Of a stretch of DNA of 22,781 bases, positions 1 to 17,517 are shown in pieces; positions within the stretch are counted from its first letter, which is position 1; each line of letters begins with the position of its first letter. A model generated the notes under the pieces. It worked only from the letters and a program-made list of their open reading frames with translations. It did no database searches and was not told the DNA's origin. The stretch is from IMG/VR virus record IMGVR_UViG_3300034356_001229, positions 1-22,781 of that record; one strand, given 5' to 3'. Source of the stretch: a virus. The position numbers and the translations under genes are program-made.

Positions 1-3000
1 ACCTTCTCCTGCTGTACTTACTAATGCTCTATATCCGCCTAATATATAGCTTACATCAAATATTGCATCAATTATGATTTCTTGAGTCATATCAAAATCA
101 CTTACTGTGTTAGATAAAGTTACATCGGATCCACCGCTACTAGCGGATACTGTTATATACTCTTCTCCAGTTCCTAACATTGATCCTGAATCATTTGTAA
201 GTATTTTTACACTTCCTCCGTCAGTATCAGATATAGTGAATCTAATTCCATCAATATTGATACTTTCTACAAAATATTCTACTCCTATTGTAATACCACC
301 TAGTCCTTGACCTGAGAATATGATAGGCATGCCTACATATAATGACTCAGTAGTATCACAGGTTATTAAATTACTTGATGATGTACTAATAGCATCTATT
401 TCTACTATACCGTAATCAGTTATGTAATATGTAGTTGCTGCTGTTAGTCCGCCTATAGTAGTATCAAATTGTACTGGCATATTAACATAAAAATCGTCGG
501 TGTTTCCAGTAGATGAGTCAATAGTAATTCTATCTAAAGTAGCTATTGTAGCCGTCATTGTTCTTTCAATTAACGAACTGTTTGTTCCAGAAACGTTTGG
601 ATATTGTTCAGACGTACTATACAAAGTAAACAGCTGACCATTTACTTGTCCAGGGCTTACTGGTAAAGATACATTCATTGTCATAGAACCGGTTGCAGTA
701 GACAATGTTAATGTGTTAGCTTGACTGGTTAACAGCATACTACCTGCACCGTTAGATAATACAAACACACCACCGTTAATCAAAGTAGAAATAGTCATTT
801 GTGTTGTGTTAACTATTTCACTTACATAATATGTTGTGCCGGCAATAATGTTACCAAATGTAGTTCCAGTAAATATAATAGGATCGTTAACACTAAAATC
901 ATCAGTTGAAGAAACAGTTACTCTATTATTAGATGCAGTGGTTGCAGTTGCAGTAGTTGATAATGGATCTTGTGTTTCTGAAATAGTAAACGTTTGACTA
1001 TTAATAACAGTTGTTATGTAATATACGTCATTTTCAATTACCCCACCAAACACAGGCTCAGTTACACTATACTTAGTAAAGAATACAGGCAAGTTAGTAT
1101 AAAATCCTTCAGTTCCTCCTGTACCTATTAAACTCATAGGAACAGTTAACGCATTAGTACCTGCTTGGGTAGCTGTTACTTCAAGTATGCCGGGATAGTT
1201 AACAGTTAATACAGCAGTATCTACTACTTCGCCTGCTAAACATTTTAATCCAGCTGCAGGAATAGTTGCGTTAGTTAAAGTTACTGTGCCGCCACCTTCG
1301 GTTAATGATACAGTAAAGTCTGTATCATTAATAATTGTTTTAACATAATAAGTAATATTTTCTTGTAATCCACCAGCAACCGCACCAACAAACTTAACAG
1401 GCATGCCTTCATAGAAACCTATTGTTGATCCTGAAGCATTTGGATTAGCAGAACCATCATCTAGAGGTATCAATCTAATTGCATTAGTAGCTAATATCGT
1501 GTTGCCTACGTTACGTTCTAATGAAGACCAAGTTAGCTGTCTATCATTGTCAACATCTGTGATTTCAAACGCAACACCTTGAGCACTTGCTAATACTGAT
1601 GAGATAGGAGGTAATACACTTTCTAATTGCATTGACGAGCTAGAAACACTTTCGCTATTAAAATAACTACCAGCAAAGAATGATCCGTAATATGTGCCTG
1701 CTCTCCAATCTTGTACTTGTGAAGTATAAGTTGTTCTATCAAATCTTAGTGTGATATTATTTTCTCTAATAGGAGACGCAGAAGTGATCGCAGAGGCTTT
1801 TGCTCCTAAACTAATAGTTAACTGATCATCTGTTCCGATATCAGATATTTGTATTCTGTTTGTATCATTTATAGCGTCACTGTAGTTAGAGTAAAACGCA
1901 ACTATAGCAGTTGGTGTTGTTTCTAATACATTGATATAGTACCATTGATTATTAGCTAAACGACCGACCCCAGCATCACTTTGTTTAAACAGTACTAAGT
2001 CTCCGGTAGCTAAGTTAGGACCATAAACTCTTATTGTGTGTAATGTTGAGTTAATATCAGCATTAGTAAATGATATTACTACTGAAGGATCTATTCTAAT
2101 TTCAGGAAGAACCATATATCCCTGACCAGGATCTATTACGTTAATACTTAAAACTGAATCTAAACTCATTACTGCTTCAAATACTGCTTCTGTAGTAGGA
2201 GCAGGATACAAATCAAGATCAACGTATGCAGTTACTCTAGGAGGATCAACATAACCTTTTCCTCCATTTAGAACAATTACTTCAGGTAAATCAATAAAGA
2301 TTTTTTCATTAGGGAAATGTTGAGAAATAGCTGTTCCGTTTAGTCCTCTTTGTAGTCCTGAAACTAAGTTAAGTGCTCTGTCAACTGAAGAGTAAGCTAT
2401 TTCTTCGTTACCTATTCTAATTGTACCATTGATTGGGAATCCTTGAGCATTGTCTACAAACATAAACGATGAACCCAAAGTCATGTAAGAAACTAATGTA
2501 GTGATCTCATAATTACTTTCACCGGTTAAGCTTACTCCCTTATTTTGAAACCATTGTGTGTATGGAGCAGTTTGCCAAATATCGTCAGTATCTACGTATT
2601 CATTATCTTGATTAGGATTAGAATATACTAATGAAGGAGTAATAAACTGATTTACTGATTTATCATACTGAGCAGGCAAATCAAAGTCTGTAATATTACC
2701 ATCAAATGTGTCTATTCCTGTATACTTAAATACAAACTCTTTTACAACCACATGATAAGGTTTAACTTCGTTAATGTATCCTGCTAAAAAGTCTTGATTA
2801 TCAGTTTGAAACACTTCTATTGGTTTCAATTCTCTTATAGTATGAGCCACATCTACTAATGAAGTTTTGTTTAACCAAGGTAAATAGTTTTGAGATTCAG
2901 TACTTTCACTTTGAATGTAGTCAAATAATAATATCAATCCTTTGTTTCTAAACAACAATAATTCATCAATATAAATTTGTTCGTTCAATGCGCGAATGAT

Positions 3001-6000
3001 ATATCTAGTTTCTTCACTTGGATATTCATCATATGAACTAGTATCAAAGAAGTTATCACCAAATCCAAGTCTTGCTTCAGCATAATCCCAAAGAGTCAAG
3101 TTAAATTCAATAGTTCCATTTTCTAAACCGATACGAGTCCAAATGCTGTTTCCATCATATCTGTAAACTTCAAACTTACCGCTACCATTGTTTTCTACAG
3201 TAACAATAGTGTCTGTTGCTACAGATAAGGTAGACAGATCGGCGTACAATGGAACTTGTATAGCTGACTTAGTGTTGTTGTCGTATCCAGTTGTCCACCA
3301 GTTAATATACTGCCAGTAGTCTGGTGTATTGTAAAATTCTCCTTGAGCAAACAATAAAGATATGTCAGGTCTAATTTCACTGATCGGATACTGAGCTAAT
3401 ACTTCATTAGCATATGTTAAGTAATTCTTTAATGCTAGGTAACGATTGTAAAAGAAACTTTGTCTTGGTCTAGCTAATACACCAGACTGAACTGCTTTTG
3501 GTAAGTACGGGTTAGGTACTACGCTTCCTTCTTCATCTACTCCAGCCAAACTGTCTAACAGTCTATCATAAAGACCTATAGGTTCTGCGTTGCTTCCTAA
3601 TTTAGGTAGTCCAGGTAAAAAGTCATCAGCAAAATCTTCTTTAATTAATGTATATTCTGAGTGTGCTTCATCATCATTTGTACCATTAGCATACCCTATA
3701 TGGAATACGCTATCATTTGCATTAATATATTCAGCACAGTTATAAAGAGCAAATGAATTATCTCTTAGCGGAGCAAAAAATGCGATACCAGAATTCTTAG
3801 GATTGCTGATGTAAGATTCAAGTATTGTATCAGATAATGTTTTTCCTTCTTCTCTAAAGATTATATTTGAATTTCTTACCCAGAAATAATAAACAGGAGT
3901 AACTATATTAGAAGAATCTATTATACTAGAAACAGTATATCTAGTGCTATCTTTTGGTGTGCCGGGGCCTTGATAATCTCTAGGAGAAACATTACTTACT
4001 ACCCAAGTATAAACAGCAACATCACTACCAGGAAATACTGTTCCCCAATATTTGCTGTTGTATACTAAGTCATTTTGATGGTAATTTACAAAACGAACAT
4101 TAGTAGTATCAAACCATACTTTACCAACTTTTTCAGGGCCCCAAATTAACCCTGACTGAGGATCAAAAATCTCATCACTGTTATAATTAGCAGGGTCAAT
4201 TGAAGTAACATAGTTTATGTTTTGTCTTACAGATCCTAATAGTTTACCCTGTAATGGATCAATGTAATCAAGATTTATCAATGTGTTATTTGTTTCAGCA
4301 CTAAAGAGTTGTGCATTCTGGATGCTATCAATGTTTACTATAGGCGCAGAATTTCTGTATATTGACCAGTCTTTAATACCTGATTCATTTTCGTAAATAG
4401 TTACTTGACCGTCTACTGAGTCTGGTAAGAAGTTAGGTGTGCCTATCATTACTACATTGCTGTTGAAATCTAAAGCAGTGCCATAAAGTGGATTGAAACC
4501 GTATACTATGTCTTTGCTGTTTACAGACTGTGCATAAACAAACTCACCGATATTAGTTAAGTTCTCGTTATAGTTTGAAATGTAATCAAACATATAAACT
4601 GCGCCGGCATTTGGTGCAGTATCTATAAACTGTGTAGCGTTGTTGTCAAAAATAGTATCGTTTGTAAAATCTTCGTCATCAATAAAATCAAACGTAGTAC
4701 CTTCATAACGAGTAGCTACTGGTGCGCTAATCACTACAGAATCATATTCGTTGAATTGAACTACTGATCCAAACTGAGTAGGTCCAAATTCATGCGGGCA
4801 GTTAATAACTTGTGTGTTAGTATATATTTCAATACCTAGTTCAGTTAATGTAGTGGTATCAACCGCTGTTATTATTAGTTTCTGATTAACCTGAGTTAGA
4901 TCAGTATTAATAACTTGAATCATTAGTTTATTATCTACAGTAGCCGCTGCTTGAATGTTAGTAATATTAGCAGAATTAATAGCATTAGCTACAACTGTTG
5001 CGTTTCCTATTGGCACGTTAACAAAGTATCCGTTAATTAGTAAAGGACGAACAGCAGTAACATTACATTCGTTTACTCCAGTTACTAAACCAAATTTTGC
5101 TCCAGCATTTGTAAATCTATAAACAGCACCTTCTTGGTTTTCGTCACTAATTTCAAAAGGAGATCCTATTAATATTTCAGAACCTGATTGAATAGTATCA
5201 AGTGAATAACCAAACTGAGTGCCTACTCTATTATTATAATTTGATGTAAAGGTCTGCGCGTAAGTAAACTTACTATCGCTTACTGTGATAATATCACCTG
5301 CTGTCAATGTACCTGAGTAAACGAACGTACTACCTATCACACCATAGTTGTTATCTTGAACTATTACGCCGTTTCTAGATACGTATAATGGTGAGGTTTG
5401 CACGGTAGCAGTTACGTTAGAAACAGATCCTACGGTAGATATTGCCTCAGGAGTAATAGATGATCTTGAAGTTTTTATTGTTATATCAGATCCTGCAATA
5501 CTTCTTATGTAGTAAACACTATTTCCTTGAATACCGGTACCAAGTAAACCAGTACCGCTAAAGATAATAGGATCATTAACTGCTATTCCAGATACACTGT
5601 TTAATGTGATCAAGTTTCCTGTGGCATTAGTAGCACTTACTGTTCGTGATACTGTTATAGGTGTCCATGCTAATTGGAAAGTTTGTCCTATTGTATTAAA
5701 CTGAACTTCAATATTTTGAACTGCTCTAGAAAATGCAAAAGCACTTCCCCAGTTAGCAATGTTGCCATCATAGTCTTTATCAGGAGCGCCCACTACCATC
5801 ACATCACCATAGTAGTTTGTAGTAATAGACTTGCTAAACTTATCAGTTGATGATACTAAGCTTAAAGCTACTCCGTTGATTATTGTTGACGCTTTGTAAG
5901 TGATCTGAGTTGCTGCACCGGTGCCGGTACCTACTCCTGTTGCAACAAACGTGATACCTACTTTGCTTTCAATCGCACCAATTAATGTAAAGTCAGTAGT

Positions 6001-9000
6001 ACCTAAGTCAGTGATAACATAAGTTTGTCCGGAAACAAAATATCCTGCATTAAGCAATATGTTTTGTTTCTGATAAACATGTACCTTATCGTTTGCAATA
6101 TCAGAAATATATAACCAATTTTGGTCTCCGGAAATAGCTAGTTCGCTACCCCAATCTGTTACTCCGCCGGGTGCAGCGATTGTTTGATAAAGAACAAAAT
6201 CGTCTGACAACTGACTATCATTAATTACATATACATGAACTTCTGAAGCAGTAGTAGGTTCAGAAATTACATAAGTGTTTCCTGCATAAACGATCTTAGA
6301 ACCAAATGATGTTCCGCCGGTTAGTGTTTCTACGATAAAGTAATTGTTAGCAGAATCTTGAGCGTAACGATAAACTTCGCCTGCACTAGCATCGCTTATT
6401 AAATACCCTGCTTGATCAGTGTACGCAACTGCGCTACCAAATGTAGTGCTGTTAGTTTTTGTTACTTCATTATTATACTGATAGTTCAAACTCTTTCTAT
6501 ATACAGCCCAACTACCGTCAGTGCTTTCGTCTACCCATACAGTATTTTTTACAAACTCTGTATCCAGTAGCGGTAGGTTATTAATACTAGCAGGATTGCT
6601 TACTCTTTGTGATTGGAATGTTAAACCAATACCTTGACCAGTGCTTGCAATTTCAGTAGCTACCGGTAAGTTAATAATCACTTCATTCAAGTTAACTATG
6701 TTAGCTACTATGTAATATCCGTCTACGTTTGTTGCATAGTTTATAATAGACAGAGGTTGCAGTCTTACTAAACCGTGAGGTTGAGCAAATGTTATTGTAG
6801 CAGTATTGTTTAGATTACTTCTTACTGCTATTACTCTACCAACAGATGTCCAAGCTAATACATCCCAGTTTCCTAGATAGTTAGCTAACCAAGCGTAGTC
6901 TCTTACATAAAAATCATTAATAAGTACAGGCTCATTATTTTTATCTCTTGCTACTGGTAACCCTGAATAGAAATAAGAAGACATTTTAACATCATCAAAG
7001 TTTACATATCCAGCATCAGGATATACTTGTGTTGGAGTAGAAGGATCAATAGTACTTAAAATATTAGGAGAGTCAATAGGTCTAGCATAATTGAACAAAC
7101 TATATATAGGCACTTCTTGTTGAGAACCCGGAGTATAAACACCGTTAGTCAAGCTAACAATTGATGGATTACCTGTTAGATATTGTTCGTTGATTTTAAA
7201 ATCTACAAAGTTTTTGTTTAATAGTCCACCAAACTCACCGCTTTTAATAGCCCAGTTTTCATAGACTTCATATTCAATACCACCTTGCGGTAAGGTAGCT
7301 CCTCTAAATGCTTCTATCGCATTACGAGTACCTTTGTTTTTAATCAAGTTTTGATAAACGTTAATCTGAGTAATATCAGTTAAGTCTACTAATGCCATGT
7401 AGTCACGAGGTCTGTAACCTATCAGTGAGAATCCTAATAGGTCTGCATCGTTTTCTAAGTTAGCTTTGTTAGTGTCATAATATAACGCACTTTCATATGA
7501 TCTAGTTGAAGAGTTAGGTAATAATCCTTTTTGAATTTGATCGTAATCGGTTTCTTTCCAATCTCTTTCATTGAAAATATTGCTAGGCTCAATTACTTTT
7601 AATGCAGTCCAGTATTTGTTTTTATAAAGTACAATTGATCCTTTAGTGTACTTGACTGCTCTTGACCATTCTTTTATGTTGTCTTGATTTAATATAAATC
7701 CTGAAGCGGTAATAGTTCCGTTCCATTCAGCGGTTTTAGTTCCTCTTACATATATTCTGTTTTGTCTTAACCCAGTAATTAAATTGTATATAGTATCATT
7801 AAACAATGTAGTATTATCAAATACCACAGCATGTTCAAAGTTACTTAAATTAAACTGTCCATAAGAAACAGTGTCACCTTGATTAAGTGCGGTAACACTA
7901 AACTCAGTACCGTTTCTAAACACGCTTAAGTCTTTTGCTTGTATTGGATACAAGTTTTGATTCAATACAAAATTAGTATTTTGTACAGTAAGCGGTTGAA
8001 CAATTGAACTTTCTTTGTCAATTTTCAATGTTTGAGCAGATGGATTTAATAAAAGAATACTTCCTACTTCCCAGCCAGTTTGTGACCAGTATAAGAATTC
8101 ACTGATCATTTGATCCCAGTTAACTTCTATTCCACCTAAGACATCGTTGAATATCATACCTTGTGAAGTTAGATATGCACCGTAACTAGACAAGAACTGT
8201 GCTACTTCTTGTTCGCTATAAAACTTAGCACCATAAGGAATTAATAATTCGTTAGCAGTATAATCAACTGCAACTTTTACCTGAGCATCTTCAACTTGAA
8301 TGTTATTGTATTTACCATTGTTTACTGGCTTCAATACTTTAAAGTATGCATTAGTTTGTGAATTACCAAATACAGTATAACCATCCTGTGTTATTTGTAT
8401 TACAACTCCTGAGTATACAATTCTATCAAACGGTTGATTATCATAAAGAAGCAATGAATAACTTTCGTCTGGAATTAACAATGATGCGTTTCTACTGTTT
8501 GGAGTTCCTTTTTCTACATAGAACTTTAGCAAGTTTTTATCGCTATACCCAGCCAAACGATAAATTAATCTTACATCAAGGTTATCAAGTAAGTTAGTAA
8601 TATTTTCAGTAGCATTTATTCCTATTTGCTTTTCGTAATCAACTATCCAGTTAATATAACTTGTTTTTGCAGTACCTGAACCATAGATTTCAACATCACT
8701 TATTACTAAATGACTTCTGTTGTTTACCAAGTATTGATTAAACTCTAAGTTATATTTGTAGTTGTCTACATCTACTCCCAAGTTAAAGAAGTTAGCAGGT
8801 TTCATTAATGCAAATATTCTCATCAGATCAAAAGGATATGCTGAGCTTCTACGATAGCTTAATTCAACCGGGGCATCATCACCCACTTTCCAATCTCTTT
8901 GGAATGTATTAGGGTTGTAGTTTCCTACTATTGCAACAAACGGAGAAACTAAATTACCTGCACTGTCTACTGGAATGATATTAGTTAAGCCAGGACGAGC

Positions 9001-12000
9001 AACTGTTTCAACTGTAATAGGTACTCCGTCATTCCAAATTACACCCTGTTCTAAATCATTCCAAAGAATTAAGTTATCACTAGTATAAGGCGCAGGACCA
9101 TATCTTTCTGTCCACCAAGTTGGTTGATCAGTAAAACCTAACATTTCCCATGGCGTAGCATTAGGGGTTGTAGTATCATAAAAGTATTGATACACACCTC
9201 TCCAATAACCTTGCTCAATCGGTGTATTAGTTAATTTGTTAGCTGCATTGGTGTAATTGTAAGTAAATTCATTTACTTTAGAAAAAACCTGAGTTTTGTA
9301 ATTTAATCTGTTTTGCCCTACCCAGTTTAAGAAACTTTCACTATACATTTGCAAGAATTCGCTATATGTATAGTCGGTATCTCTAAAGAATCCCGGTAGC
9401 ACTTCATATGTTTGAATAGGTACAGTGCTGCTTAATTTTAAGTTGTTATAAATTCTTGTTTCAAATTCTAATAAGCCCTGATCTCTAAAGTCTTCTAGAA
9501 CACCCAAATTAGTGTTATAAGATCCGTATAACTTATTATAAGAACCATCGTGTCCTTTAATAAAATATGTTGGTTGAGTATAAGCAGTGTCTAACACTAC
9601 TTGAGGAGTATAAGCAGGATATAAACCTAATTTTGTTGGTGTGTTAGGAACATAACTACCATAAGTTTGATTATATTCTTTAATAGTAATCTTGTCACCC
9701 GCAATCAAGTCTAACGTAACAGTTAGTGACGGGGCATCTTGACTTATAACATAGTCTTGATTAATAATCAATTGTTTCTGTATAGTTACACCGCTTATTA
9801 TTCTTGACAAATAAACAATAACACCATTATAGTTAGCAGTAGCAAAGTTATATGTTGTAGTTAAGGGATAAATGCTTGTATCTAAATTGTTTGCAAAAGT
9901 ATAAGTGTTGCTTCTTAATGGTGACTTAGCAGGTAACATGTCGCTCCAAAAGAACGCTTGTGACTCACTTTTAGCCGCAGTAATAATATCAATAGCTTGA
10001 TCTAGTATTTCTGAAGGCGTGTATCGTTGTACATATTCTGCATTATTAATAGTATCTACTAATAGATTTTTAAACTTAGTGTATTCGTTGCTATTAAATT
10101 GTAACGCATCAAACAAGTTGTGATTTGTTTTACGCAAGAATGTGCCGGGTAATACTAAAGAAGCACTATTTTGAATTATGTTAGTTCCATATGGAACTAA
10201 GTTACCTAAGTCTCTATAATTGTTTGATCCAAATACTTGACCTAACATACCGGGAGCATTTACATAAATGTCTCTGTATTGTAATCTAATATCACCAACG
10301 TTAACTGTTTCTAAGTCTTGGTTAAATGGATTGTTACTTAAGTTAACAGGTATTGTATAATATGCTTGATTACTAACTTGGTTACTTAATATTAAAACTT
10401 CAATTGGTGTATCACTATCCAATTCAGAAACGTCTAATAATTCAATGATCGTAGAATTTGCAGTAATAGTGTATGAATATTCACTTACGCACTGGCAAGC
10501 ATTGTTTATGTACACCTGTACACTAGTCCAAGAATCTTGACCTTCTACTTCAGATATAGCAGCAATGTCGCATACAAATGTTGTACTAGGATTATCCTTT
10601 AGATATGTAAATTGAAATACTTGATACTGCGCACTAGGTGCTACCGCGGTTTGCCAACCTAATTCTCTAGTATATTCAGTTCTGTCATCATAATTAAACA
10701 CATAACCTGTGTTAACTTTTTGAGTTATAGGAGTAGTTCCAGTAACATAATCAAATGTATCAGTGTTTAACGAAACATCAAAACTAATATCACCTACATT
10801 ATCAATAGCACTGTATCTTATAGGAAATCCTAAAATAGGATCATCGGTTCCAGAGCCTATGCCATAAGAAAATAATGTACAGCCGGCAAAAGAAGTACCT
10901 TGATAAATTGTTGGATCGCTAAAACTTATACCGTTTTCATCAAATACATCAAATAACGGTGCTTGATTTACAGTAACTTTTTCTTGTGCTGTGATCCAAT
11001 TATCGTTACTAAAATAATAAGTATTACCTTGATTATTATATCCTCTAGTAATAACTGCTTGATCATTTTCTTCACACAAACCATCCTGAGCTTCAGTTAA
11101 TGTAATAACCGGTACTGATGATGGGGATAATTGAGAAAGTGCAACAACATATATTTTATTGCGTACATTCACATCCGTGTCTGCTGCAAATATAATTCTT
11201 GCTCCAGAGAATATAGAGTAATTATTAACTGTAGTGTCTGTTGCAATAACGGCTACACTAGTAGCTGAGCCAACAGATTGTGATACGGCCCAAGACACTG
11301 TTAATACAGTGTTATTACCTGCTATGGTTATATTTGTAATTTGTGTGTTGTTAGGTAAAATATCTAAGTAATCACTAATATACTGCCCAACTTGGAACGT
11401 TCCTACAATATCAGCAGTAGGAATAGTAATAGTAGTTGATGTTCCTACAACAGATGCTATAGATACTGTATTTTCTGTATATACTTCTACATCAGGAAAA
11501 TAATTGTTTAATCCTGCAATTTGCGATAGTGCATCAGTTGTTCTTTGATCAATGAAATCTACTGCATCTTTGCCACGAGTACCTGAGTTGAATAATCCTA
11601 AATTAGGATAAAATTCAATAATAGGTCTTCTTGCTTTATTTTCTGCTTTAGCGAATTCAGTAACTATTGATGGATTATTATTATAAATCGCAGTTTGATT
11701 AATTACTTGCGAATGAAACCATCTGTTGCTTCTAGACCAAGCATTTTTGTTTATTGCGTTTCTAGCAATAGTAATATAATCTAAATCTGTTGGTATAAAC
11801 AAATCACTATCAAAGTTTGATAAATCAAACGGAGTAGTATCAAACGGGACAAAGGTACTTGTAGTAAAATCTTCAGGTGATACTAATGTTTCAACTGAAA
11901 TTAGTTCTATTGCCGAACCTACACCTTCTACGTAATATTGTCCGGATAAGTATCTTGACGGGATAACGTCACCGTCAAATTCTACTTTTAGTCCATTAGT

Positions 12001-13593
12001 AAACACAACACCATTTGTTGAAGTGTAATTCTTTTTACCTAAAATATCAGTTTCTACATTTATAGTATTCGTGGTATTATTTTCAATTATTCTAATAATA
12101 CCTACTTTGTTTGCAGAAGTACCATCTTGATAGTAAAGCTGATCAAGCGGTGCAGTAATATAAGGTACTAAAGAAACAACACCTAGCGTATTTCTATAAA
12201 ATTGTCTGTCAATCCAAGTTGAGCCGTACGTAGCTGTTATTTTTTGTTCAGTTGGTATTAAACCGTCTGGTATTAATCTTATAATTGGATTTGTAGGATC
12301 TGAGGGATCTACTACATAAGTAATTCTGTAAAAGTTTTCACTAACTGTTGTATAGAACCCTTCTTCATACAATCCTTGATTTGCGTTAGCGGTCATTGTT
12401 CCGCTATCAGTAGTAAGCGGAAAAGTTGCTCCACCTAATGTATCAGAAATAGTAAATTCCGTAGAACTGTCTACACTTTTAATATAATAAATTGTACCTG
12501 CTGTTACTCCACCAAATACTGGATTGTTAAATGTAATAGTATTGTTAACTACTAGCTGACTAGTATTTCCAGTTGATAAAGTAAATCTATCAGTTGATGA
12601 ATTAGAACTTCCTATTGTAACTACTAAAGGAGCTACTAATGCATTATCATTCGTATCAAATGAAGTTTCATCGTAGTATGCAGAAATATAACCAATCTCA
12701 TTAACTACACCTGTGTCATAAAACATAACACGTAAGTTGTTCAATGAAGTAATACTATCAATTGACCCTAATGCTGACAACGGAGCACCGTTGACATCTT
12801 CAAATGGTAGTGTGCTTATCACATCAACTAAGTTGTTACCGGGGAATATAAACTCATCTTGTGCATCTTTACTAGGTACTGTAAAAGTAACTACACCCTG
12901 AGTAGCTCCGTTATTACTAACACCATATACATCTCGTACCGGCAAATTAGGTTGAGTAGGACTGAATCCTGATACACCGGGTTCTCCTTGTATCCAAAAC
13001 TGTGATGGCTGATTTACTGTAAATCTATACGAACCACCTCTTAATAAAGTGATAGTAGGATTGGTACTGCCAGCAGAAGCTCCCAGTTCTCTTATATTAT
13101 AACCATTAGCTAAATCAGTAACTATATAATCATTGGTTGAATAGACTAGTGCAGAAGACACAGTTACTGCGGGAGGACCAGTAGGTATCCAGTAATATTG
13201 ATTGTAATTTACTATTTTGTCAAAATCAGTAAATGAATCCCATGAATAAATCTGACTTTCAAACAGTCTTGAATTATTATTAGTAATTCCTCCCTGCAAT
13301 TCTAGTGCATCTAAAATACCGGGATAGCTAATAAAATCTTGAGCAGTTGACTGATTAGTTTTTGTAAATACAACACCGGGATCTAGTTGATAGTCTGTTC
13401 TTGTTTTATTTGGTTCTGTTACATAATAATCATTAGCATTAACACCATAACCTACTTTACTACCAATATATCCTTGTATCTTTTTTGTGATAGGAGGATT
13501 TACTAGCTGGTCTAGTGTTGCTGACAAAAACTCAGTGTTGGTTTTTGTTTGAAAAATTTCGGGAAGAAAATTAAGAGTTCTTATTCTTGTCAT
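1..13593 (-). CDS. Giant modular baseplate/tail structural protein, gp7 position (3' end beyond window)
   Basis: One uninterrupted frame runs from the ATG at 13593 to the window edge: at least 4,531 codons, with the C-terminus missing. It starts 9 bases after the gp6 stop, the place of gene 7 in T4, but is over four times T4 gp7 length and I see no clear gp7 homology. Residues 1-160 (MTRIRTLNFLPEIF; GYIG; DYQLDPGVVF; NYNQYYWIPTGPP) are of a type I recall from large marine phage virion proteins. Then come a cupredoxin-like motif (178-206), a beta module (332-400), long tail-type regions with GHDGS and LLEFETRIYNN, a CBM5/12-like motif (1974-2016), seven FG-GAP-like repeats (2360-3075), VKPYH (about 3611), an RG-NGT module (3717-3770), GxGY motifs (3780-3830) and YYV/FTIS modules (4032-4477). 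No signal peptide or catalytic domain is evident. The likely role is a baseplate-attached structural or host-recognition protein. The weak ribosome site AGG lies 12 bases before the ATG. Confidence 0.88.
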   Translation of the reverse strand, partial: MTRIRTLNFLPEIFQTKTNTEFLSATLDQLVNPPITKKIQGYIGSKVGYGVNANDYYVTEPNKTRTDYQLDPGVVFTKTNQSTAQDFISYPGILDALELQGGITNNNSRLFESQIYSWDSFTDFDKIVNYNQYYWIPTGPPAVTVSSALVYSTNDYIVTDLANGYNIRELGASAGSTNPTITLLRGGSYRFTVNQPSQFWIQGEPGVSGFSPTQPNLPVRDVYGVSNNGATQGVVTFTVPSKDAQDEFIFPGNNLVDVISTLPFEDVNGAPLSALGSIDSITSLNNLRVMFYDTGVVNEIGYISAYYDETSFDTNDNALVAPLVVTIGSSNSSTDRFTLSTGNTSQLVVNNTITFNNPVFGGVTAGTIYYIKSVDSSTEFTISDTLGGATFPLTTDSGTMTANANQGLYEEGFYTTVSENFYRITYVVDPSDPTNPIIRLIPDGLIPTEQKITATYGSTWIDRQFYRNTLGVVSLVPYITAPLDQLYYQDGTSANKVGIIRIIENNTTNTINVETDILGKKNYTSTNGVVFTNGLKVEFDGDVIPSRYLSGQYYVEGVGSAIELISVETLVSPEDFTTSTFVPFDTTPFDLSNFDSDLFIPTDLDYITIARNAINKNAWSRSNRWFHSQVINQTAIYNNNPSIVTEFAKAENKARRPIIEFYPNLGLFNSGTRGKDAVDFIDQRTTDALSQIAGLNNYFPDVEVYTENTVSIASVVGTSTTITIPTADIVGTFQVGQYISDYLDILPNNTQITNITIAGNNTVLTVSWAVSQSVGSATSVAVIATDTTVNNYSIFSGARIIFAADTDVNVRNKIYVVALSQLSPSSVPVITLTEAQDGLCEENDQAVITRGYNNQGNTYYFSNDNWITAQEKVTVNQAPLFDVFDENGISFSDPTIYQGTSFAGCTLFSYGIGSGTDDPILGFPIRYSAIDNVGDISFDVSLNTDTFDYVTGTTPITQKVNTGYVFNYDDRTEYTRELGWQTAVAPSAQYQVFQFTYLKDNPSTTFVCDIAAISEVEGQDSWTSVQVYINNACQCVSEYSYTITANSTIIELLDVSELDSDTPIEVLILSNQVSNQAYYTIPVNLSNNPFNQDLETVNVGDIRLQYRDIYVNAPGMLGQVFGSNNYRDLGNLVPYGTNIIQNSASLVLPGTFLRKTNHNLFDALQFNSNEYTKFKNLLVDTINNAEYVQRYTPSEILDQAIDIITAAKSESQAFFWSDMLPAKSPLRSNTYTFANNLDTSIYPLTTTYNFATANYNGVIVYLSRIISGVTIQKQLIINQDYVISQDAPSLTVTLDLIAGDKITIKEYNQTYGSYVPNTPTKLGLYPAYTPQVVLDTAYTQPTYFIKGHDGSYNKLYGSYNTNLGVLEDFRDQGLLEFETRIYNNLKLSSTVPIQTYEVLPGFFRDTDYTYSEFLQMYSESFLNWVGQNRLNYKTQVFSKVNEFTYNYTNAANKLTNTPIEQGYWRGVYQYFYDTTTPNATPWEMLGFTDQPTWWTERYGPAPYTSDNLILWNDLEQGVIWNDGVPITVETVARPGLTNIIPVDSAGNLVSPFVAIVGNYNPNTFQRDWKVGDDAPVELSYRRSSAYPFDLMRIFALMKPANFFNLGVDVDNYKYNLEFNQYLVNNRSHLVISDVEIYGSGTAKTSYINWIVDYEKQIGINATENITNLLDNLDVRLIYRLAGYSDKNLLKFYVEKGTPNSRNASLLIPDESYSLLLYDNQPFDRIVYSGVVIQITQDGYTVFGNSQTNAYFKVLKPVNNGKYNNIQVEDAQVKVAVDYTANELLIPYGAKFYSEQEVAQFLSSYGAYLTSQGMIFNDVLGGIEVNWDQMISEFLYWSQTGWEVGSILLLNPSAQTLKIDKESSIVQPLTVQNTNFVLNQNLYPIQAKDLSVFRNGTEFSVTALNQGDTVSYGQFNLSNFEHAVVFDNTTLFNDTIYNLITGLRQNRIYVRGTKTAEWNGTITASGFILNQDNIKEWSRAVKYTKGSIVLYKNKYWTALKVIEPSNIFNERDWKETDYDQIQKGLLPNSSTRSYESALYYDTNKANLENDADLLGFSLIGYRPRDYMALVDLTDITQINVYQNLIKNKGTRNAIEAFRGATLPQGGIEYEVYENWAIKSGEFGGLLNKNFVDFKINEQYLTGNPSIVSLTNGVYTPGSQQEVPIYSLFNYARPIDSPNILSTIDPSTPTQVYPDAGYVNFDDVKMSSYFYSGLPVARDKNNEPVLINDFYVRDYAWLANYLGNWDVLAWTSVGRVIAVRSNLNNTATITFAQPHGLVRLQPLSIINYATNVDGYYIVANIVNLNEVIINLPVATEIASTGQGIGLTFQSQRVSNPASINNLPLLDTEFVKNTVWVDESTDGSWAVYRKSLNYQYNNEVTKTNSTTFGSAVAYTDQAGYLISDASAGEVYRYAQDSANNYFIVETLTGGTSFGSKIVYAGNTYVISEPTTASEVHVYVINDSQLSDDFVLYQTIAAPGGVTDWGSELAISGDQNWLYISDIANDKVHVYQKQNILLNAGYFVSGQTYVITDLGTTDFTLIGAIESKVGITFVATGVGTGTGAATQITYKASTIINGVALSLVSSTDKFSKSITTNYYGDVMVVGAPDKDYDGNIANWGSAFAFSRAVQNIEVQFNTIGQTFQLAWTPITVSRTVSATNATGNLITLNSVSGIAVNDPIIFSGTGLLGTGIQGNSVYYIRSIAGSDITIKTSRSSITPEAISTVGSVSNVTATVQTSPLYVSRNGVIVQDNNYGVIGSTFVYSGTLTAGDIITVSDSKFTYAQTFTSNYNNRVGTQFGYSLDTIQSGSEILIGSPFEISDENQEGAVYRFTNAGAKFGLVTGVNECNVTAVRPLLINGYFVNVPIGNATVVANAINSANITNIQAAATVDNKLMIQVINTDLTQVNQKLIITAVDTTTLTELGIEIYTNTQVINCPHEFGPTQFGSVVQFNEYDSVVISAPVATRYEGTTFDFIDDEDFTNDTIFDNNATQFIDTAPNAGAVYMFDYISNYNENLTNIGEFVYAQSVNSKDIVYGFNPLYGTALDFNSNVVMIGTPNFLPDSVDGQVTIYENESGIKDWSIYRNSAPIVNIDSIQNAQLFSAETNNTLINLDYIDPLQGKLLGSVRQNINYVTSIDPANYNSDEIFDPQSGLIWGPEKVGKVWFDTTNVRFVNYHQNDLVYNSKYWGTVFPGSDVAVYTWVVSNVSPRDYQGPGTPKDSTRYTVSSIIDSSNIVTPVYYFWVRNSNIIFREEGKTLSDTILESYISNPKNSGIAFFAPLRDNSFALYNCAEYINANDSVFHIGYANGTNDDEAHSEYTLIKEDFADDFLPGLPKLGSNAEPIGLYDRLLDSLAGVDEEGSVVPNPYLPKAVQSGVLARPRQSFFYNRYLALKNYLTYANEVLAQYPISEIRPDISLLFAQGEFYNTPDYWQYINWWTTGYDNNTKSAIQVPLYADLSTLSVATDTIVTVENNGSGKFEVYRYDGNSIWTRIGLENGTIEFNLTLWDYAEARLGFGDNFFDTSSYDEYPSEETRYIIRALNEQIYIDELLLFRNKGLILLFDYIQSESTESQNYLPWLNKTSLVDVAHTIRELKPIEVFQTDNQDFLAGYINEVKPYHVVVKEFVFKYTGIDTFDGNITDFDLPAQYDKSVNQFITPSLVYSNPNQDNEYVDTDDIWQTAPYTQWFQNKGVSLTGESNYEITTLVSYMTLGSSFMFVDNAQGFPINGTIRIGNEEIAYSSVDRALNLVSGLQRGLNGTAISQHFPNEKIFIDLPEVIVLNGGKGYVDPPRVTAYVDLDLYPAPTTEAVFEAVMSLDSVLSINVIDPGQGYMVLPEIRIDPSVVISFTNADINSTLHTIRVYGPNLATGDLVLFKQSDAGVGRLANNQWYYINVLETTPTAIVAFYSNYSDAINDTNRIQISDIGTDDQLTISLGAKASAITSASPIRENNITLRFDRTTYTSQVQDWRAGTYYGSFFAGSYFNSESVSSSSMQLESVLPPISSVLASAQGVAFEITDVDNDRQLTWSSLERNVGNTILATNAIRLIPLDDGSANPNASGSTIGFYEGMPVKFVGAVAGGLQENITYYVKTIINDTDFTVSLTEGGGTVTLTNATIPAAGLKCLAGEVVDTAVLTVNYPGILEVTATQAGTNALTVPMSLIGTGGTEGFYTNLPVFFTKYSVTEPVFGGVIENDVYYITTVINSQTFTISETQDPLSTTATATTASNNRVTVSSTDDFSVNDPIIFTGTTFGNIIAGTTYYVSEIVNTTQMTISTLINGGVFVLSNGAGSMLLTSQANTLTLSTATGSMTMNVSLPVSPGQVNGQLFTLYSTSEQYPNVSGTNSSLIERTMTATIATLDRITIDSSTGNTDDFYVNMPVQFDTTIGGLTAATTYYITDYGIVEIDAISTSSSNLITCDTTESLYVGMPIIFSGQGLGGITIGVEYFVESINIDGIRFTISDTDGGSVKILTNDSGSMLGTGEEYITVSASSGGSDVTLSNTVSDFDMTQEIIIDAIFDVSYILGGYRALVSTAGEG
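166..1500 (-). repeat. C-terminal cluster of about 75-residue beta modules
   Basis: Residues about 4032-4477 contain at least five diverged copies of one module: at 1241-1500 (ENITYYVKTI...DFTVS), 961-1170 (ENDVYYITTV...TFTISET), 727-950 (AGTTYYVSEI...MTIST), 395-570 (AATTYYITDYG) and 166-393 (GVEYFVESI...RFTISDTDGG). Each has an opening strand near a DD or DP-type turn, a strand ending in F, the YYV/YYI strand, and a FTIS strand; several end in GSM. A shortened piece lies at about 660-726. DNA identity between copies is low, so this is an old protein-level array rather than a recent duplication. A stalk or surface-binding role is plausible but unproven. Confidence 0.72.
2284..2445 (-). other. 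IGNEE...LQRGLNGT...H module
   Basis: Residues about 3717-3770 read INGTIRIGNEEIAYSSVDRA followed by SGLQRGLNGTAISQH and FPNEKIF. The pattern (strand, IG-x-E-x-x-x-Y, RG-x-x-GT, then H near a final strand) is a short motif I recall from many phage tail proteins. The GGKGYVDPP and PGQGYMVLPE motifs immediately after it (residues about 3780-3830) are of a GxGY-x-x-(P) type also common there. The role is probably structural; no enzyme residues are evident. Confidence 0.55.
5455..5652 (-). repeat. YYI-type beta module inside the propeller region
   Basis: Residues about 2648-2713 contain NLITLNSVSGIAVNDPIIFS, a short GTG segment, then NSVYYIRSIAGSDITIKTS. It is the same kind of module as those near 166-1500 and 12395-12600, especially the copy carrying VNDPIIFTG. 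It lies between propeller repeats 4 and 5 and is best read as another inter-blade insertion. Confidence 0.6.
5910..6057 (-). other. Inserted module of TTDFTLIGA/TGTGTG type
   Basis: Residues about 2513-2561, between propeller repeats 3 and 4, read GYFVSGQTYVITDLGTTDF, then TLIGA, VGITFVATG and VGTGTG. I recall this pattern (G-x-x-Y-x-I-x-x-x-G-T-T-D-F-T-x-I-G-A, later TFxATGxGTGTG) as a small beta module scattered through marine phage tail and baseplate proteins. It has no known catalytic role. Its place inside the propeller array suggests insertion at an inter-blade loop. Confidence 0.6.
7545..7680 (-). other. CBM5/12-like aromatic motif in the giant protein
   Basis: Residues about 1974-2016 contain EWSRAVKYTKGSIVLYKNKY followed by WTALKV, P and ERDW. 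The order Y-x-x-G-x-x-V-x-Y-x-x-x-Y-W-x-A, then P, then W matches the small chitin/cellulose-binding modules of CBM family 5/12, in which the aromatic residues contact sugar. Phage tail proteins often carry such modules for surface glycan contact. Binding is inferred; only the motif spacing is seen. Confidence 0.5.
12395..12600 (-). repeat. Isolated YYI/FTIS-type beta module, N-terminal copy
   Basis: Residues about 332-400 carry the pattern seen again near the left edge of the window: an opening strand (RFTLSTGNT), a short hydrophobic strand ending in F, GGVTAGTIYYIKSV, then EFTISDTLGG and a closing SGTMTA. This copy is separated by more than 3,600 residues from the C-terminal cluster, so the module has been used repeatedly within one protein. 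Such modules are common in marine phage structural proteins; their function is unknown. Confidence 0.65.
12975..13062 (-). other. Cupredoxin-like motif in the giant protein
   Basis: Residues about 178-206 read TITLLRGGSYRFTVNQ followed by FWIQGEPG. The pattern (hydrophobic strand, RG, Y-x-F, then FWI) resembles the core strands of cupredoxin-like beta-sandwich domains, which occur as non-enzymatic modules in phage structural proteins. No copper-ligand set is visible, so this is read as a structural fold only. The assignment rests on a short motif. Confidence 0.4.
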
Positions 13594-13602
13594 TTTTAAT
13601 GA

Positions 13603-16600
13603 TTACCTACCAATTTGTAACTCAGCGGGAGTTAATGCCGCTACTACCAATACATCATTTGCTACTGCCCCATTTGCAAAAATCTCATAAGGCATGCACT
13701 TTATTTCGTATAAATCACCAAAACGCTTGCTAGGATCATTTGGTACTAATACAGCAGAACTTATTAATTCTCCGCATTCAGCATGTAGATATGCACTTAG
13801 TTCTGAGAAAAAGAACGTATCTCCAAAATTCCAATTGTTAATATTAAAATACTCATTCATTGCTGTTAATACTGCACTTCTGATTTCACTATCACTAGCA
13901 TTAGTTTTACTTTGTTTAATTACCTTTATTGTGGCTCTTAGCGCAGGTTCTGCTTTAGGACCAAATAACGGTTTGAATACAACACTATTTAACACCACAG
14001 AATCCGACAACATTTTGAAATTCTGAACTTGTGAGTACTCTTGATTTAGTTGATTGATCGTTGGCATATCTGGCATAGGTATTGTGTTAGTTGAATCTTG
14101 AATCCAATTTTGATACGCAGTATAATAAGATTGCGTAACTACATAAAGATCAATAATATTAGTAGTAGCTGGATCTATTCTAGTAGTATTATTAGAATTA
14201 TGTCTGTATTGAAAAGACAATCCTTGTCTACCCGGTTTTACTGAGTATTCAAGTTGTTCTACTAATACATATGAAGGTATAGTTACCGTTTGATCTTGTA
14301 CTGATTTGTAAAACTTATTCTCTGTATATGCATAAAATAATTGTCCTAGAGGATAATCATATTTTACAACTTCTACTTGAGTTTTAGTAGCAAATTGATA
14401 CACAACGTCAGTAGAAGGAACAATAACTTCTCTTGATAAATTAATAGCATCTTGAATTAATCTAAAGAAAACATATATTCCTATATTTGAACCCGTATTA
14501 TCGTAACCAGTAATTTGCTGAAAGAAATCTGGATTTAAGATTAACTGACTGTTATTAACATCAGTAGCCGCAATTTCAACTTGGAAATCATCTACATAAC
14601 CGTCGGATTGAACAGTTTGTCCTAAAATATTAACTTTTACATCTTTACCTAAACTTTGTGAAGAATTAGGCTGAGAATTTACTTGTAAAACATTAATAAA
14701 GTCTTGAATAATTTTTCCAGTAAACGGATCGTATACTAACTCATCTCGTGCAAACGTAAATCTAGTATCCGCAACACTACCAAAGTAATAAGTTAATGAC
14801 TTAAGTGTAACAGTATATCTACCTGATCCCATACTTTGAAATTTAACAAAATAATTCTCGTCGGTTATAGGTCTAATAGTCCATCTTTCTTGATTTATAG
14901 TAAGGGCGTTATTGAATACTAATGTAAAATTCTGTTCAAGTTCCATACGAACTACACACTCATTAATTAAAGTAGCAGATAATGAGTTGTCAAAAACAGG
15001 TATAACGCTAACTAATATTGATCCTGAAGGAACATATCCGTTTAGTGTTACGGGTCCTGTTCCATTAGCGAAACCACCTTCGCCGTTATTACTACCGTCT
15101 CCTATAACGTTTAATACAGTAGTCCAAATAAAATATTGTTCAGAATTTGCGGGGATCCCTGCTACCAATCTATTGTTGGCATCATAGTAAAATCCTGACG
15201 GTGCACGAAATCTTAAAATTGATCCAGTAGTAACATACTTTGCATTAGTAGTAGTAAAGGTTCCCAACGAAGCGGGAGTATTATTACTACCAGATATGTT
15301 ATAAAAATATCCTGATTCACTAGAAGCATCTACTGAACTAGTTTGCCAATATACCCAAGTGTTGTTAGGAGCTACTTGTGTATTTGTAATAGTATATCTA
15401 GGATAATTCTGAATGTAATACTGATTAGCTTTATTTTCTGCAAGAACAGACGCAAGTGTATTATTAAAGAATGCAATAATATCACTTATGTTATCTATAG
15501 TAAGTTCTAAAAATCCGTCAGTATCGTTTTGATAAAGAGCACCATCTGAACCAAACGAATTAGTACTTGAATATTTTCCTGTTGGGTCTAATAAGTCAAA
15601 GTTTTTAGAAATACCCACTGAACTACGATTAATTGCTTTACTTTTTATAATAGAACTATAAAGAGTATAAGGGAAGTTGTTGTAGTCTTCACCGTTTACC
15701 ATTCTGTTTTGCGTGTAATAACGAGTAGGTGCTCGTTGTTTAATTTCTGATAAAGGCTCTCTAACTTGCGCGTTAGATACAGCAAGTGGTAACTCTAATC
15801 CCAATGTTAGTGTTTCATTTCTTCCTTGACGATTCACATAAGTAAACGCTACCGTAATGCCTTGCATTTCTGACGGGTCAATTACATATGTTTGAGCGTT
15901 ACTAGAACGTACATATGCTCTAAATAATCCTACCGGTACTTCAGAAAATACGCCATCACCGAAAATATAAGTAACTTGATCGTTAAATCTAGAATTTACT
16001 GAAAATATTTTTTTGTCAGAAAACTCTGTTTGTAGGTATGCGTCTGCATAAACGTTGTCAACTTTTCTCCAAAGTGTTCTATCACCATTGTTATTGTTTA
16101 ACTGATATAACCACGTGTCTGTATTATTAACACCTTGAATACTACCTATATCTACTGTTTGATTTGATATTTGTTGTTCTAAATTAAAATCAAAGTTTTG
16201 TAGTGTCCCTTGTTTGAAGTAGAAAAAGAATCCAGTTTCAGGACTACCGTATCCCAACTTGTCATTACGATATAAAATGTTAAATCTACTACTAGGGTCA
16301 GGTGGAATTTCGTATATATAATCTTCACCTAAACTAGTTACAGATACTAACTCAAAACTCATGTTCTGTCCATCTACTGAAGAAGTAAACGGAGCAATGG
16401 GCAAACTATTATCAGGAATTTTTATTGAATATTCGTTTGTTGTTACATTCACTATGTCAGTAGAATTACCCGGTCTACCTATGCGTTGAGTATCAACTAG
16501 AGTAGCATTGATAATAGTGTTGAATTGTTCTAACCAATTTGGATTTGCTGGGTCATTCCAAAGTATAGGTATATTATTTAAATTAACACCATTGATGTCT

Positions 16601-16989
16601 AAAAGATTTTGTGTAGTTTGGATACTAGTAACTTTCAAATAACCTTGAGCGGCTAAGTTTCTTTTAGGAGTATAGCTTACTAAGTTTGCTAACTTGATTA
16701 CTGAGTCTCTGCGTTCAGCAGTGTCAATAAAGTTTTCACGAGAGTTTAAGTCGTTTCTAAAAGCAAGACCCTGACCCATATAAGCCATAACGTCAAGCAG
16801 AGCAATAAACTCTGAACTTTCAATATAGTCGTTAAAAGTTTCAGGATAATATAATTGCAAATAGTCTATAAAACTCTTTCTAAGAGTTTCATAGTCATAG
16901 CTTCTAAAATCCGCTTCTCTGAATGTCTGGTAAATCTGCTTCCAGTCATTGACTCCAAAAAGTCCGCTTTGTCTAGATGATGTTGCCAT
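13603..16989 (-). CDS. 6: Baseplate wedge protein gp6 (baseplate J family)
   Basis: This is a T4 gp6-type protein. In T4, gp6 forms the continuous wedge ring of the inner baseplate, pairing with gp7 and joining neighbouring wedges around the hub. Residues 20-100 carry the family's N-terminal signature: FIDYLQLYYPETFNDYIESS, then AYMGQGLAFRNDLNSRENF, TAERRDSV and SYTPKRN. The baseplate-J-like part includes RAPTRYYTQNRMVNGEDY (about 420), and the C-terminal domain includes FKPLFGPKAEPALRATI (about 1005) and FGDTFFFSEL. At 1,128 residues it is much longer than T4 gp6 (660); the extra length seems concentrated at about 490-800, a beta-rich stretch. The ATG at 16989 follows a weak GAGA ribosome site held in an inverted repeat. 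The stop codon lies 9 bases before the giant gene, suggesting co-transcription and matched dosage. Confidence 0.95.
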   Translation of the reverse strand: MATSSRQSGLFGVNDWKQIYQTFREADFRSYDYETLRKSFIDYLQLYYPETFNDYIESSEFIALLDVMAYMGQGLAFRNDLNSRENFIDTAERRDSVIKLANLVSYTPKRNLAAQGYLKVTSIQTTQNLLDINGVNLNNIPILWNDPANPNWLEQFNTIINATLVDTQRIGRPGNSTDIVNVTTNEYSIKIPDNSLPIAPFTSSVDGQNMSFELVSVTSLGEDYIYEIPPDPSSRFNILYRNDKLGYGSPETGFFFYFKQGTLQNFDFNLEQQISNQTVDIGSIQGVNNTDTWLYQLNNNNGDRTLWRKVDNVYADAYLQTEFSDKKIFSVNSRFNDQVTYIFGDGVFSEVPVGLFRAYVRSSNAQTYVIDPSEMQGITVAFTYVNRQGRNETLTLGLELPLAVSNAQVREPLSEIKQRAPTRYYTQNRMVNGEDYNNFPYTLYSSIIKSKAINRSSVGISKNFDLLDPTGKYSSTNSFGSDGALYQNDTDGFLELTIDNISDIIAFFNNTLASVLAENKANQYYIQNYPRYTITNTQVAPNNTWVYWQTSSVDASSESGYFYNISGSNNTPASLGTFTTTNAKYVTTGSILRFRAPSGFYYDANNRLVAGIPANSEQYFIWTTVLNVIGDGSNNGEGGFANGTGPVTLNGYVPSGSILVSVIPVFDNSLSATLINECVVRMELEQNFTLVFNNALTINQERWTIRPITDENYFVKFQSMGSGRYTVTLKSLTYYFGSVADTRFTFARDELVYDPFTGKIIQDFINVLQVNSQPNSSQSLGKDVKVNILGQTVQSDGYVDDFQVEIAATDVNNSQLILNPDFFQQITGYDNTGSNIGIYVFFRLIQDAINLSREVIVPSTDVVYQFATKTQVEVVKYDYPLGQLFYAYTENKFYKSVQDQTVTIPSYVLVEQLEYSVKPGRQGLSFQYRHNSNNTTRIDPATTNIIDLYVVTQSYYTAYQNWIQDSTNTIPMPDMPTINQLNQEYSQVQNFKMLSDSVVLNSVVFKPLFGPKAEPALRATIKVIKQSKTNASDSEIRSAVLTAMNEYFNINNWNFGDTFFFSELSAYLHAECGELISSAVLVPNDPSKRFGDLYEIKCMPYEIFANGAVANDVLVVAALTPAELQIGR

Positions 16990-16995
16990 AATAAG

Positions 16996-17039
16996 TCTCG
17001 GTTAATATATACTATATTTATCATTTTGAAAAACCGAGA
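16996..17039 (-). promoter_or_regulatory. Inverted repeat covering the gp6 ribosome binding site
   Basis: On the minus strand TCTCGGTT (17039-17032) and AACCGAGA (17003-16996) are perfectly complementary 8-base arms separated by 28 AT-rich bases. The 3' arm holds the only Shine-Dalgarno-like bases before gp6 (GAGA, about 7 bases from the ATG at 16989). In a transcript reading through from gp25 both arms would be present and could hide this site. A U-tract is lacking after the 3' arm, so a terminator is less likely. Confidence 0.55.
17015..17022 (-). promoter_or_regulatory. Late-promoter-like octamer upstream of gp6
   Basis: The minus strand reads GATAAATA here, matching 7 of 8 bases of the T4 late promoter TATAAATA and the looser NATAAATA form described for T4-like cyanophages. 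It ends 25 bases before the gp6 ATG, so initiation a few bases downstream would give a short leader starting inside the loop of the inverted repeat. The octamer is AT-only apart from its first base and the region is AT-rich, so chance occurrence is possible; position is the main support. Confidence 0.5.
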
Positions 17040-17052
17040 GTTTTATGATTTA

Positions 17053-17502
17053 TTAAATTCTAGAGGCTACACTAGTATCTTGATTAAAAAATACATTTAA
17101 AACTAATGCTTGATTGAATGGAGTTACTGCCATTTCTACTTCTATTAGTATACCGTTGTCACGAGGATAAATATTTACATAGTTAAGTTGAAGTCTTGGA
17201 TCTAAACTAGCAACTCTTCTGACTTCAGTTTCTAACTGCTGCTGCGTATCAAAATTATTAGGCTCAAATACAAAACTCCAAAGAGTAGTTCCATATCCTG
17301 GTTGTCCTACTTTTTGTCCTAAGGGTATATTAAGTGCATTTATAAAGTCTTGAATAACTAGTTGACTATCCACCATTCTAAACTTTTTACCAAATACGAT
17401 AGGATCAGTTATACCGCCGGTGCCGGCATCACTACCGGGCCTAGCGTTAGTAGTTTTTGGTTTGTCTGCATTTATTGTACTGAATCCGATGTATGTTGGC
17501 AT
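17053..17502 (-). CDS. 25: Baseplate wedge protein gp25 (gpW/gp25 family)
   Basis: This 149-residue protein matches the gp25 family, small baseplate wedge proteins that connect the inner baseplate to the first sheath ring and are shared with P2 gpW and type VI TssE. Key features are the opening helix after KFRMVDSQLVIQDFINALN, the GYGTTLWSFVFEP core (about 69-81), the EVRRVASLDPRL helix-turn (about 93-104; the usual EPR-type motif appears as DPR) and a closing strand pair, GILIEVEMAV and LVLNVFF. The length is close to T4 gp25 (132) with a slightly longer N-terminus. The start at 17502 gives a 15-base gap after gp5. No clear Shine-Dalgarno is present, so translation may depend on coupling to gp5. 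Confidence 0.93.
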   Translation of the reverse strand: MPTYIGFSTINADKPKTTNARPGSDAGTGGITDPIVFGKKFRMVDSQLVIQDFINALNIPLGQKVGQPGYGTTLWSFVFEPNNFDTQQQLETEVRRVASLDPRLQLNYVNIYPRDNGILIEVEMAVTPFNQALVLNVFFNQDTSVASRI

Positions 17503-17517
17503 GATGTATTTATTCTT

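Follow-up and report, generated by a model that had tools for sequence, protein, structure and literature searches.

We analysed a 22,781-base virus record (IMGVR_UViG_3300034356_001229, in its whole length referred to here as the window) that carries on its minus strand the frame of a giant virion protein, hereafter the giant, which runs off the window edge. On the predicted model, residues about 2369–3079 of this protein nearly certainly form one integrin-alpha-type propeller of seven FG-GAP blades, and the complete ring appears to have been set into a conserved beta-hairpin, at its turn, in what would be a baseplate-linked jumbo phage protein. Our best reading, to which we give a probability of a little under 60%, is that the ring serves as a head on the baseplate, which makes contact with the host surface or processes it and carries exchangeable modules in its loops. 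The propeller region is a single open reading frame of the minus strand, whose translation agrees with its earlier description (giant residues 2357–3076).

An AlphaFold2 model of the propeller, built with a 72-row alignment, has a mean predicted local distance difference test score (pLDDT) of 90.4 and a predicted template modelling score (pTM) of 0.88, and its seven four-stranded blades superpose on integrin alpha across the whole domain. VIA-align, run on the 1000 best Foldseek chains, gave integrin alpha-5 as the best match (9b9k_A, Z 34.8, 3.0 Å over 351 residues at 16% identity, model residues 52–762), and among the matches that it listed (50 entries) all are integrin alpha chains; other propellers score too, with Z of at least 8 in 966 of 972 chains. 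Foldseek alone also ranked an integrin first, with a template modelling (TM) score of 0.27 by query and 0.45 by target at 16.4 Å. The initial annotation had proposed seven blades in a single integrin-like ring, which is borne out by the model together with the integrin matches: structure prediction returned a single seven-blade ring, with the inserts on one face by strand topology, and neither separate beta domains nor a deviating blade count appeared in the model.

The consensus of the 72 aligned homologous regions contains seven FG...GAP...G-V-Y repeats. In the window the anchors of these repeats fall on giant residues 2386, 2431, 2482, 2587, 2795, 2942 and 3038, which are separated by 45, 51, 105, 208, 147 and 96 amino acids (aa) from blades 1/2 to blades 6/7, and read FG, FG, WG, FS, FG, FG and YG. 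The seven FG/WG repeats counted initially thus stand as seven anchors, two of which (FS in blade 4 and YG in blade 7) do not read as FG or WG. A blade profile made solely from distant relatives found five of the seven blades (blade 1 at 2.9 bits, blades 4–7 at 13.7, 19.7, 8.6 and 9.5 bits), whereas blades 2 and 3 received no separate match. When the region was shuffled 200 times, this profile gave one match above 5 bits and a maximum of 9.3. The whole-family blade profile, which includes the window as one row, found all seven, with the best piece of each at 11.6 bits or more and blade 6 matched in two pieces (11.6 and 9.3 bits), and 201 reversed sequences gave no match above 6 bits, four above 3 bits and 35 above 0 bits.

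Relatives were gathered in four viral-contig scans, each taking the best 80 of 584–585 confirmed stretches, which together with nine cultured loci provided 275 frames with both of the conserved cores described below and 201 distinct giants; counts given here describe this set, not nature. A propeller match is present in 157 of these giants, where seven is the commonest blade count (92 at >0 bits, 94 at >3 bits). The 44 giants without a match include L312, which has six blades, while 36 are without any blade above 0 bits. Pfam FG-GAP_2 (PF14312) scores 12.4 bits on the window protein, below the curated cut-off of 23 that nine of ten other members tested pass (L043 is below). At E ≤ 1e-3 it is found in 113 of 127 homologous stretches (36/40, 39/41 and 38/46 in the three batches), the scan having covered 127 of 144 propeller rows. 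When compared with PDB sequences, the family profile matched integrin alpha-IIb propellers (best E 0.0008), and the propeller as a single sequence matched no PDB entry at E ≤ 10. Searches of a phage collection gave no match for the propeller stretches of the window (1e-5) or of L095 and L067 (1e-3), nor for the 54-aa blade 3 module alone. The BFVD holds 119 entries that match at E ≤ 0.001; an uncharacterised protein from an uncultured phage ranks first, and FG-GAP proteins of giant viruses make up many of the rest.

How the ring is mounted is suggested by comparison with relatives that lack it. Conserved cores in cultured relatives flank the propeller zone, extending up to residue about 2150–2300 and resuming from about 3060–3100, and a profile of the joined flanks matches across the junction in 26 of the 44 giants without a propeller match, 22 of them at E ≤ 1e-3 and L109, L122, L191 and L194 more weakly (E above 1e-3). 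The joined hairpin, seen in PA5oct, SCTP-2, Atu_ph07 and Phosso among others, reads for instance as a WVYQK-type strand, a short turn and a W..YR-type strand; the RaK2-like rows, Vibrio 2.275 and RAS14 gave no match of the joined-flank profile across the junction. Because the arms are joined in propeller-less relatives, SWAVYR and DWSIYR are, as far as sequence can tell, most likely the arms of one hairpin that belongs to the parent protein and has the propeller inserted in its turn, and the earlier suggestion that these stretches close the ring by a strand swap was set aside. The closing strand is more likely, on the model, residues 2372–2379, where the match to the integrin N-terminus starts (the first integrin residue is aligned with model residue 52, which is giant residue 2369). 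In integrins the N-terminal strand of the propeller acts as the closing strand.

Extra modules had initially been placed between blades 3/4, 4/5 and 5/6. The anchor distances agree with this, and the strand list of the model locates the three inserts more exactly within blades 3, 4 and 5, between strands C and D. Since all C–D loops of up-and-down blades exit on one face, the three inserts share that face. By topology the stem would meet blade 7 on the insert face, if 2372–2379 is the outer strand of blade 7, and the opposite face would be left open except for the blade 6 excursion at 2958–2997. Loop content turns over among the relatives, with modules added, exchanged and lost. Across the 72 aligned rows the 3/4 repeat distance spans 49 to 519 aa and the blade 3 insert is absent (distance of 60 aa or less) in seven; the 4/5 distance, 208 aa in the window, is 150 aa or less in 47, and the module nested in the blade 4 insert is nearly absent from distant rows. 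The blade 5 insert is occupied in most rows, and the blade 6 B–C excursion is kept in most rows as well as in L149, read by eye as a compact, plain seven-repeat ring that has none of the three inserts.

In some relatives the propeller zone contains recognisable domains, whose positions in L125, L197, L229, L311, L312 and L317 were read by eye. Pfam detected CBM_5_12 in 20 of the 127 zones scanned; only in L311 and L312 was it assigned, by eye, to loops of the blades. L317 (locus 12674–19063) has a subtilase (Peptidase_S8, E 5.7e-35) and a BD-FAE hydrolase match (E 4e-7); by eye, both lie in the blade 4 C–D loop, which is also the site of the largest insert of the window. A YHYH domain (E 4.7e-36) is found by eye in the blade 1 C–D loop of L125 (locus 12686–16657), and L243 (locus 12515–15013), alone in the propeller clade in lacking a propeller, has a GDSL hydrolase (E 3.7e-9) just before the stem. 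Blade 7 of L317 also contains a second, degenerate-looking subtilase-like stretch.

The simplest history has a single gain of the propeller, in the common ancestor of a large clade with uncultured members, as suggested by a FastTree tree of 185 cores from which near copies (CBB among them) had been removed. The tree is unrooted and has long branches for L016, L226 and L009; L312 was labelled propeller-bearing by eye, and Pfam later agreed. Propeller presence needs two changes on this tree compared with a shuffled mean of 37.3, and it marks 144 of the 145 rows of one clade (support 100), the exception being L243. Outside this clade are all nine cultured phages in the tree, and CBB likewise has no propeller match. 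A freely exchanged propeller cassette was set aside, as the tree points to one origin, and because the root was not inferred a single gain is the simplest reading, not proof. The giants of PA5oct, RaK2, PBECO4, GAP32, CBB, Atu_ph07, Phosso, SCTP-2 and Vibrio 2.275 have homologous cores flanking the propeller zone and the same gene order where annotated, but no propeller match at the site. Between the cores of the Atu_ph07 and Phosso giants (L010 and L014) lie about 1,500 aa of other modules rich in GSGY-like repeats, a zone in which no Pfam family scored above cut-off.

Several observations link the giant to the baseplate. The families of the neighbouring genes and their order (hub, gp25-like, gp6-like, giant) point there. 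Its gene lies directly after the gp6-like gene, which is the gene position of T4 gp7. Its homologue in PA5oct, gp355, is annotated with the note ESI-MS/MS, and CBB_236, the same gene in CBB, is listed among the CBB structural proteins in the portion of PMC5259590 consulted. Identity with T4 gp7 was considered and received no support from profiles or from the fold of the core part. Because neither a gp7 profile match nor a good solved-structure match was found, the placement rests on gene order and on the mass spectrometry of relatives; the initial description as a phage baseplate protein draws its support from these two lines and none from T4 gp7 homology. The core part 1313–2148 was predicted with a pLDDT of 83.7, its best structural match being another phage protein. 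Residues about 1970–2016 of the giant resemble chitin-binding (CBM5/12-like) modules by fold (Z 6.6, 45 residues).

The preferred reading is that of a surface-contacting head. A propeller gained once would have been kept while loop modules came, went and were swapped; the ring would serve as a rigid platform on a hairpin stem that holds the head out from the baseplate, with one face largely free for contact, and the loop modules may supply binding or, for some relatives, enzymes that process the host surface. The enzyme and carbohydrate-binding domains that some relatives have in this zone favour surface contact. We infer that the ring lies on the outer side of the baseplate and that it contacts the host surface; receptor binding would be a plausible role of the propeller. 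A bolder version, offered tentatively, is that a large clade of uncultured jumbo phages bears an exchangeable "integrin head", set in place by a single hairpin insertion, which would recognise and trim the host surface with loops loaded with binding domains and hydrolases, and could be re-equipped without rebuilding the baseplate.

A number of points weigh against the surface-contacting head. CBM_5_12 modules are common in phage structural proteins and need not bind a receptor there, and the enzyme domains are rare (subtilase in 1 of 127 zones, YHYH in 1 of 127). The propeller of the window itself yielded no recognisable enzyme, catalytic site or binding partner, and its inserts matched no Pfam family at cut-off. 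The faces were assigned from the strand topology of the model and not from coordinates, and the Foldseek scores against integrins are modest, since the inserts break a rigid overlay. PHROGs files phrog_10938, the family of the giant, under head and packaging; three core profiles compared with five T4 gp7 sequences gave hhalign probabilities of 0.2 or less, and core part 1313–2148 fits no solved structure well (best Z 6.6, over 45 residues).

The alternative that fares best, possible in our view but doubtful, is that of a structural adaptor, a scaffold within the virion to dock tail fibres or adjacent wedges, its inserts serving as packing and receptor contact being made by other proteins. Propellers are general protein-binding platforms. 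The T7 and SU10 nozzle proteins contain propellers (PMC10607447, in part). Occupation of the blade 5 insert and the blade 6 B–C excursion in most of the 72 rows is as in a fixed docking surface, and the stem and the three inserts exit the same face by topology. Fast loop turnover (3/4 distances from 49 to 519 aa over the 72 rows) and the carbohydrate-binding or enzyme-like modules in the zones of relatives argue against an adaptor, as do the nine cultured relatives in the tree, since their lack of a propeller makes it dispensable for the wedge as such. Far less probable is that the propeller is itself an enzyme cleaving a host surface polymer, although activity as a glycoside hydrolase or lyase is known for many propellers, and the K1F endosialidase is an example of a propeller from a phage (PMC10607447, in part). 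The matches listed by VIA-align are, in all 50 cases, to non-enzymatic integrins, with no systematic search for catalytic residues having been made. FG-GAP_2 is not known to carry catalytic residues, which also counts against an enzyme. Separate beta domains in place of a ring, as might be expected from interruptions of up to about 150 aa in the window repeats and a score below the Pfam cut-off, are scarcely credible given the model, the integrin matches in structure and sequence, the seven-blade profile and the compact seven-repeat L149 (by eye).

The predicted ring shares with the N-terminal propeller of integrin alpha its seven four-stranded blades, FG-GAP spacing, a weak sequence match and a probable N-terminal closing strand. 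Integrins proper have a Ca-binding DxDxDG motif in the A–B loops of the last blades, whereas the A–B loops in the window are without it, the sole match being DKDYDG at 2605 in the B–C loop of blade 4. The window propeller also differs from that of integrins in its large C–D inserts and its hairpin setting in a phage protein, with no thigh or membrane part seen. Among phages, phiKZ has a seven-bladed propeller at the baseplate periphery, the C-terminal domain of gp131 (PDB 4GBF), for which a receptor-binding or enzymatic role is speculated and unconfirmed (PMC4901313, in part); as described there it is a C-terminal domain and not a hairpin insertion. 4GBF was neither among the PDB sequences found with the family profile at E ≤ 1 nor among the matches listed by VIA-align. 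Five-bladed propellers occur in the receptor-binding proteins phi11 Gp45 and PRD1 P2 (head) according to the same partial source, and further propellers from tail or receptor-binding proteins of phages are those of the T7 gp17 tip, the T7 and SU10 nozzles and K1F endosialidase (portions of PMC4901313, PMC10607447 and PMC11821841). None of the phi11, PRD1, T7, SU10 and K1F propellers is described as FG-GAP or integrin type in the passages cited. CBB encodes propeller proteins of the Kelch type, of which one is a virion component (PMC5259590, in part). FG-GAP proteins of giant eukaryotic viruses and an Agrobacterium phage (Atu_ph07) "hemagglutinin" are viral FG-GAP propellers and among the best BFVD matches, but they are stand-alone or multi-domain and do not lie in a baseplate-linked giant; in Atu_ph07 the FG-GAP_2 repeats (NC_042013.1, 243045–243311) belong to a separate 409-aa frame far from the giant gene, and the giant itself gave no propeller match. 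Phage propellers thus have precedents, and the integrin-type, hairpin-mounted, decorated form, for which we found no description, appears new among the literature searched, which mostly excluded subscription journals.

If this interpretation is correct, the integrin type would join the known phage propellers, and a conserved baseplate-linked protein would offer a clear case of an empty and a filled insertion site. The relatives would form a natural series, from empty hairpin to plain ring, decorated ring and ring with enzymes, that bears on how jumbo phages without obvious receptor-binding proteins meet their hosts, and the loops would be shown to tolerate whole domains. Coordinates are collected in Table 1.

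Table 1. Predicted parts of the propeller and annotated genes of the window. Residues are those of the giant; positions are those of the window.
Feature	Giant residues	Window positions	Strand	Basis
Seven-bladed FG-GAP propeller	2369–3079	4357..6489	-	AlphaFold2 and VIA-align
Stem hairpin arm 1 (NTVWV...SWAVYRK)	2350–2367	6493..6546	-	model strands; joined arms in propeller-less relatives
Probable closing ("velcro") strand, outermost of blade 7	2372–2379	6457..6480	-	model strand
Blade 1	2385–2425	6319..6441	-	model strands and blade profile
Blade 2	2431–2473	6175..6303	-	model strands and blade profile
Blade 3, strands A–C	2481–2509	6067..6153	-	model strands and blade profile
Insert, blade 3 C–D loop (GTTDF...GTGTGA module)	2510–2565	5899..6066	-	model strands
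Blade 3, strand D	2566–2573	5875..5898	-	model strands
Blade 4, strands A–C	2586–2624	5722..5838	-	model strands and blade profile
Insert, blade 4 C–D loop, with nested module	2625–2774	5272..5721	-	model strands and alignment
Nested module, copy of ~62-aa module	2654–2714	5452..5634	-	iterated profile
Blade 4, strand D	about 2775–2782	5248..5271	-	model strands
Blade 5, strands A–C	2794–2829	5107..5214	-	model strands and blade profile
Insert, blade 5 C–D loop	2830–2923	4825..5106	-	model strands and alignment
Blade 5, strand D	2924–2931	4801..4824	-	model strands
Blade 6	2941–3023	4525..4773	-	model strands and blade profile
Blade 6 B–C loop excursion (TTFD...TxFxD)	2958–2997	4603..4722	-	model strands
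Blade 7, strands A–C	3037–3068	4390..4485	-	model strands and blade profile
Stem hairpin arm 2 (DWSIYR)	3075–3081	4351..4371	-	model strands; joined arms in relatives
Giant virion protein		1..13593	-	phrog_10938 "virion structural protein", E 5.2e-282
gp6-like baseplate wedge gene		13603..16989	-	phrog_10646 "baseplate wedge subunit", E 1.1e-259
gp25-like baseplate gene		17053..17502	-	phrog_43 "baseplate wedge subunit", E 5.1e-7
Baseplate hub (gp5-like) gene		17518..20796	-	phrog_13211 "baseplate hub subunit and tail lysozyme", E 1.4e-33

In the order of minus-strand transcription, a partial structural gene is followed by the hub gene, the gp25-like gene, the gp6-like gene and the giant frame. 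The window covers 4,531 aa of the giant, whose C-terminus is incomplete here, and the protein has 6,265 aa in the L003 contig (266,967 bases). A comparison of the 767-aa region with IMG/VR contigs gave four whose best segment matches at 100% and one more at 82%. The hub protein contains short tandem repeats rich in glycine, leucine and serine (GGLGGITSSLT; window about 17850–18240, minus strand). The ~62-aa module (VNDPIIF...YYI) occurs in 14 copies above 40 bits, scores that are inflated because the profile was iterated, at residues 331–5979 of the L003 giant; 12 of the 14 copies lie beyond residue 4000 and one within the propeller.

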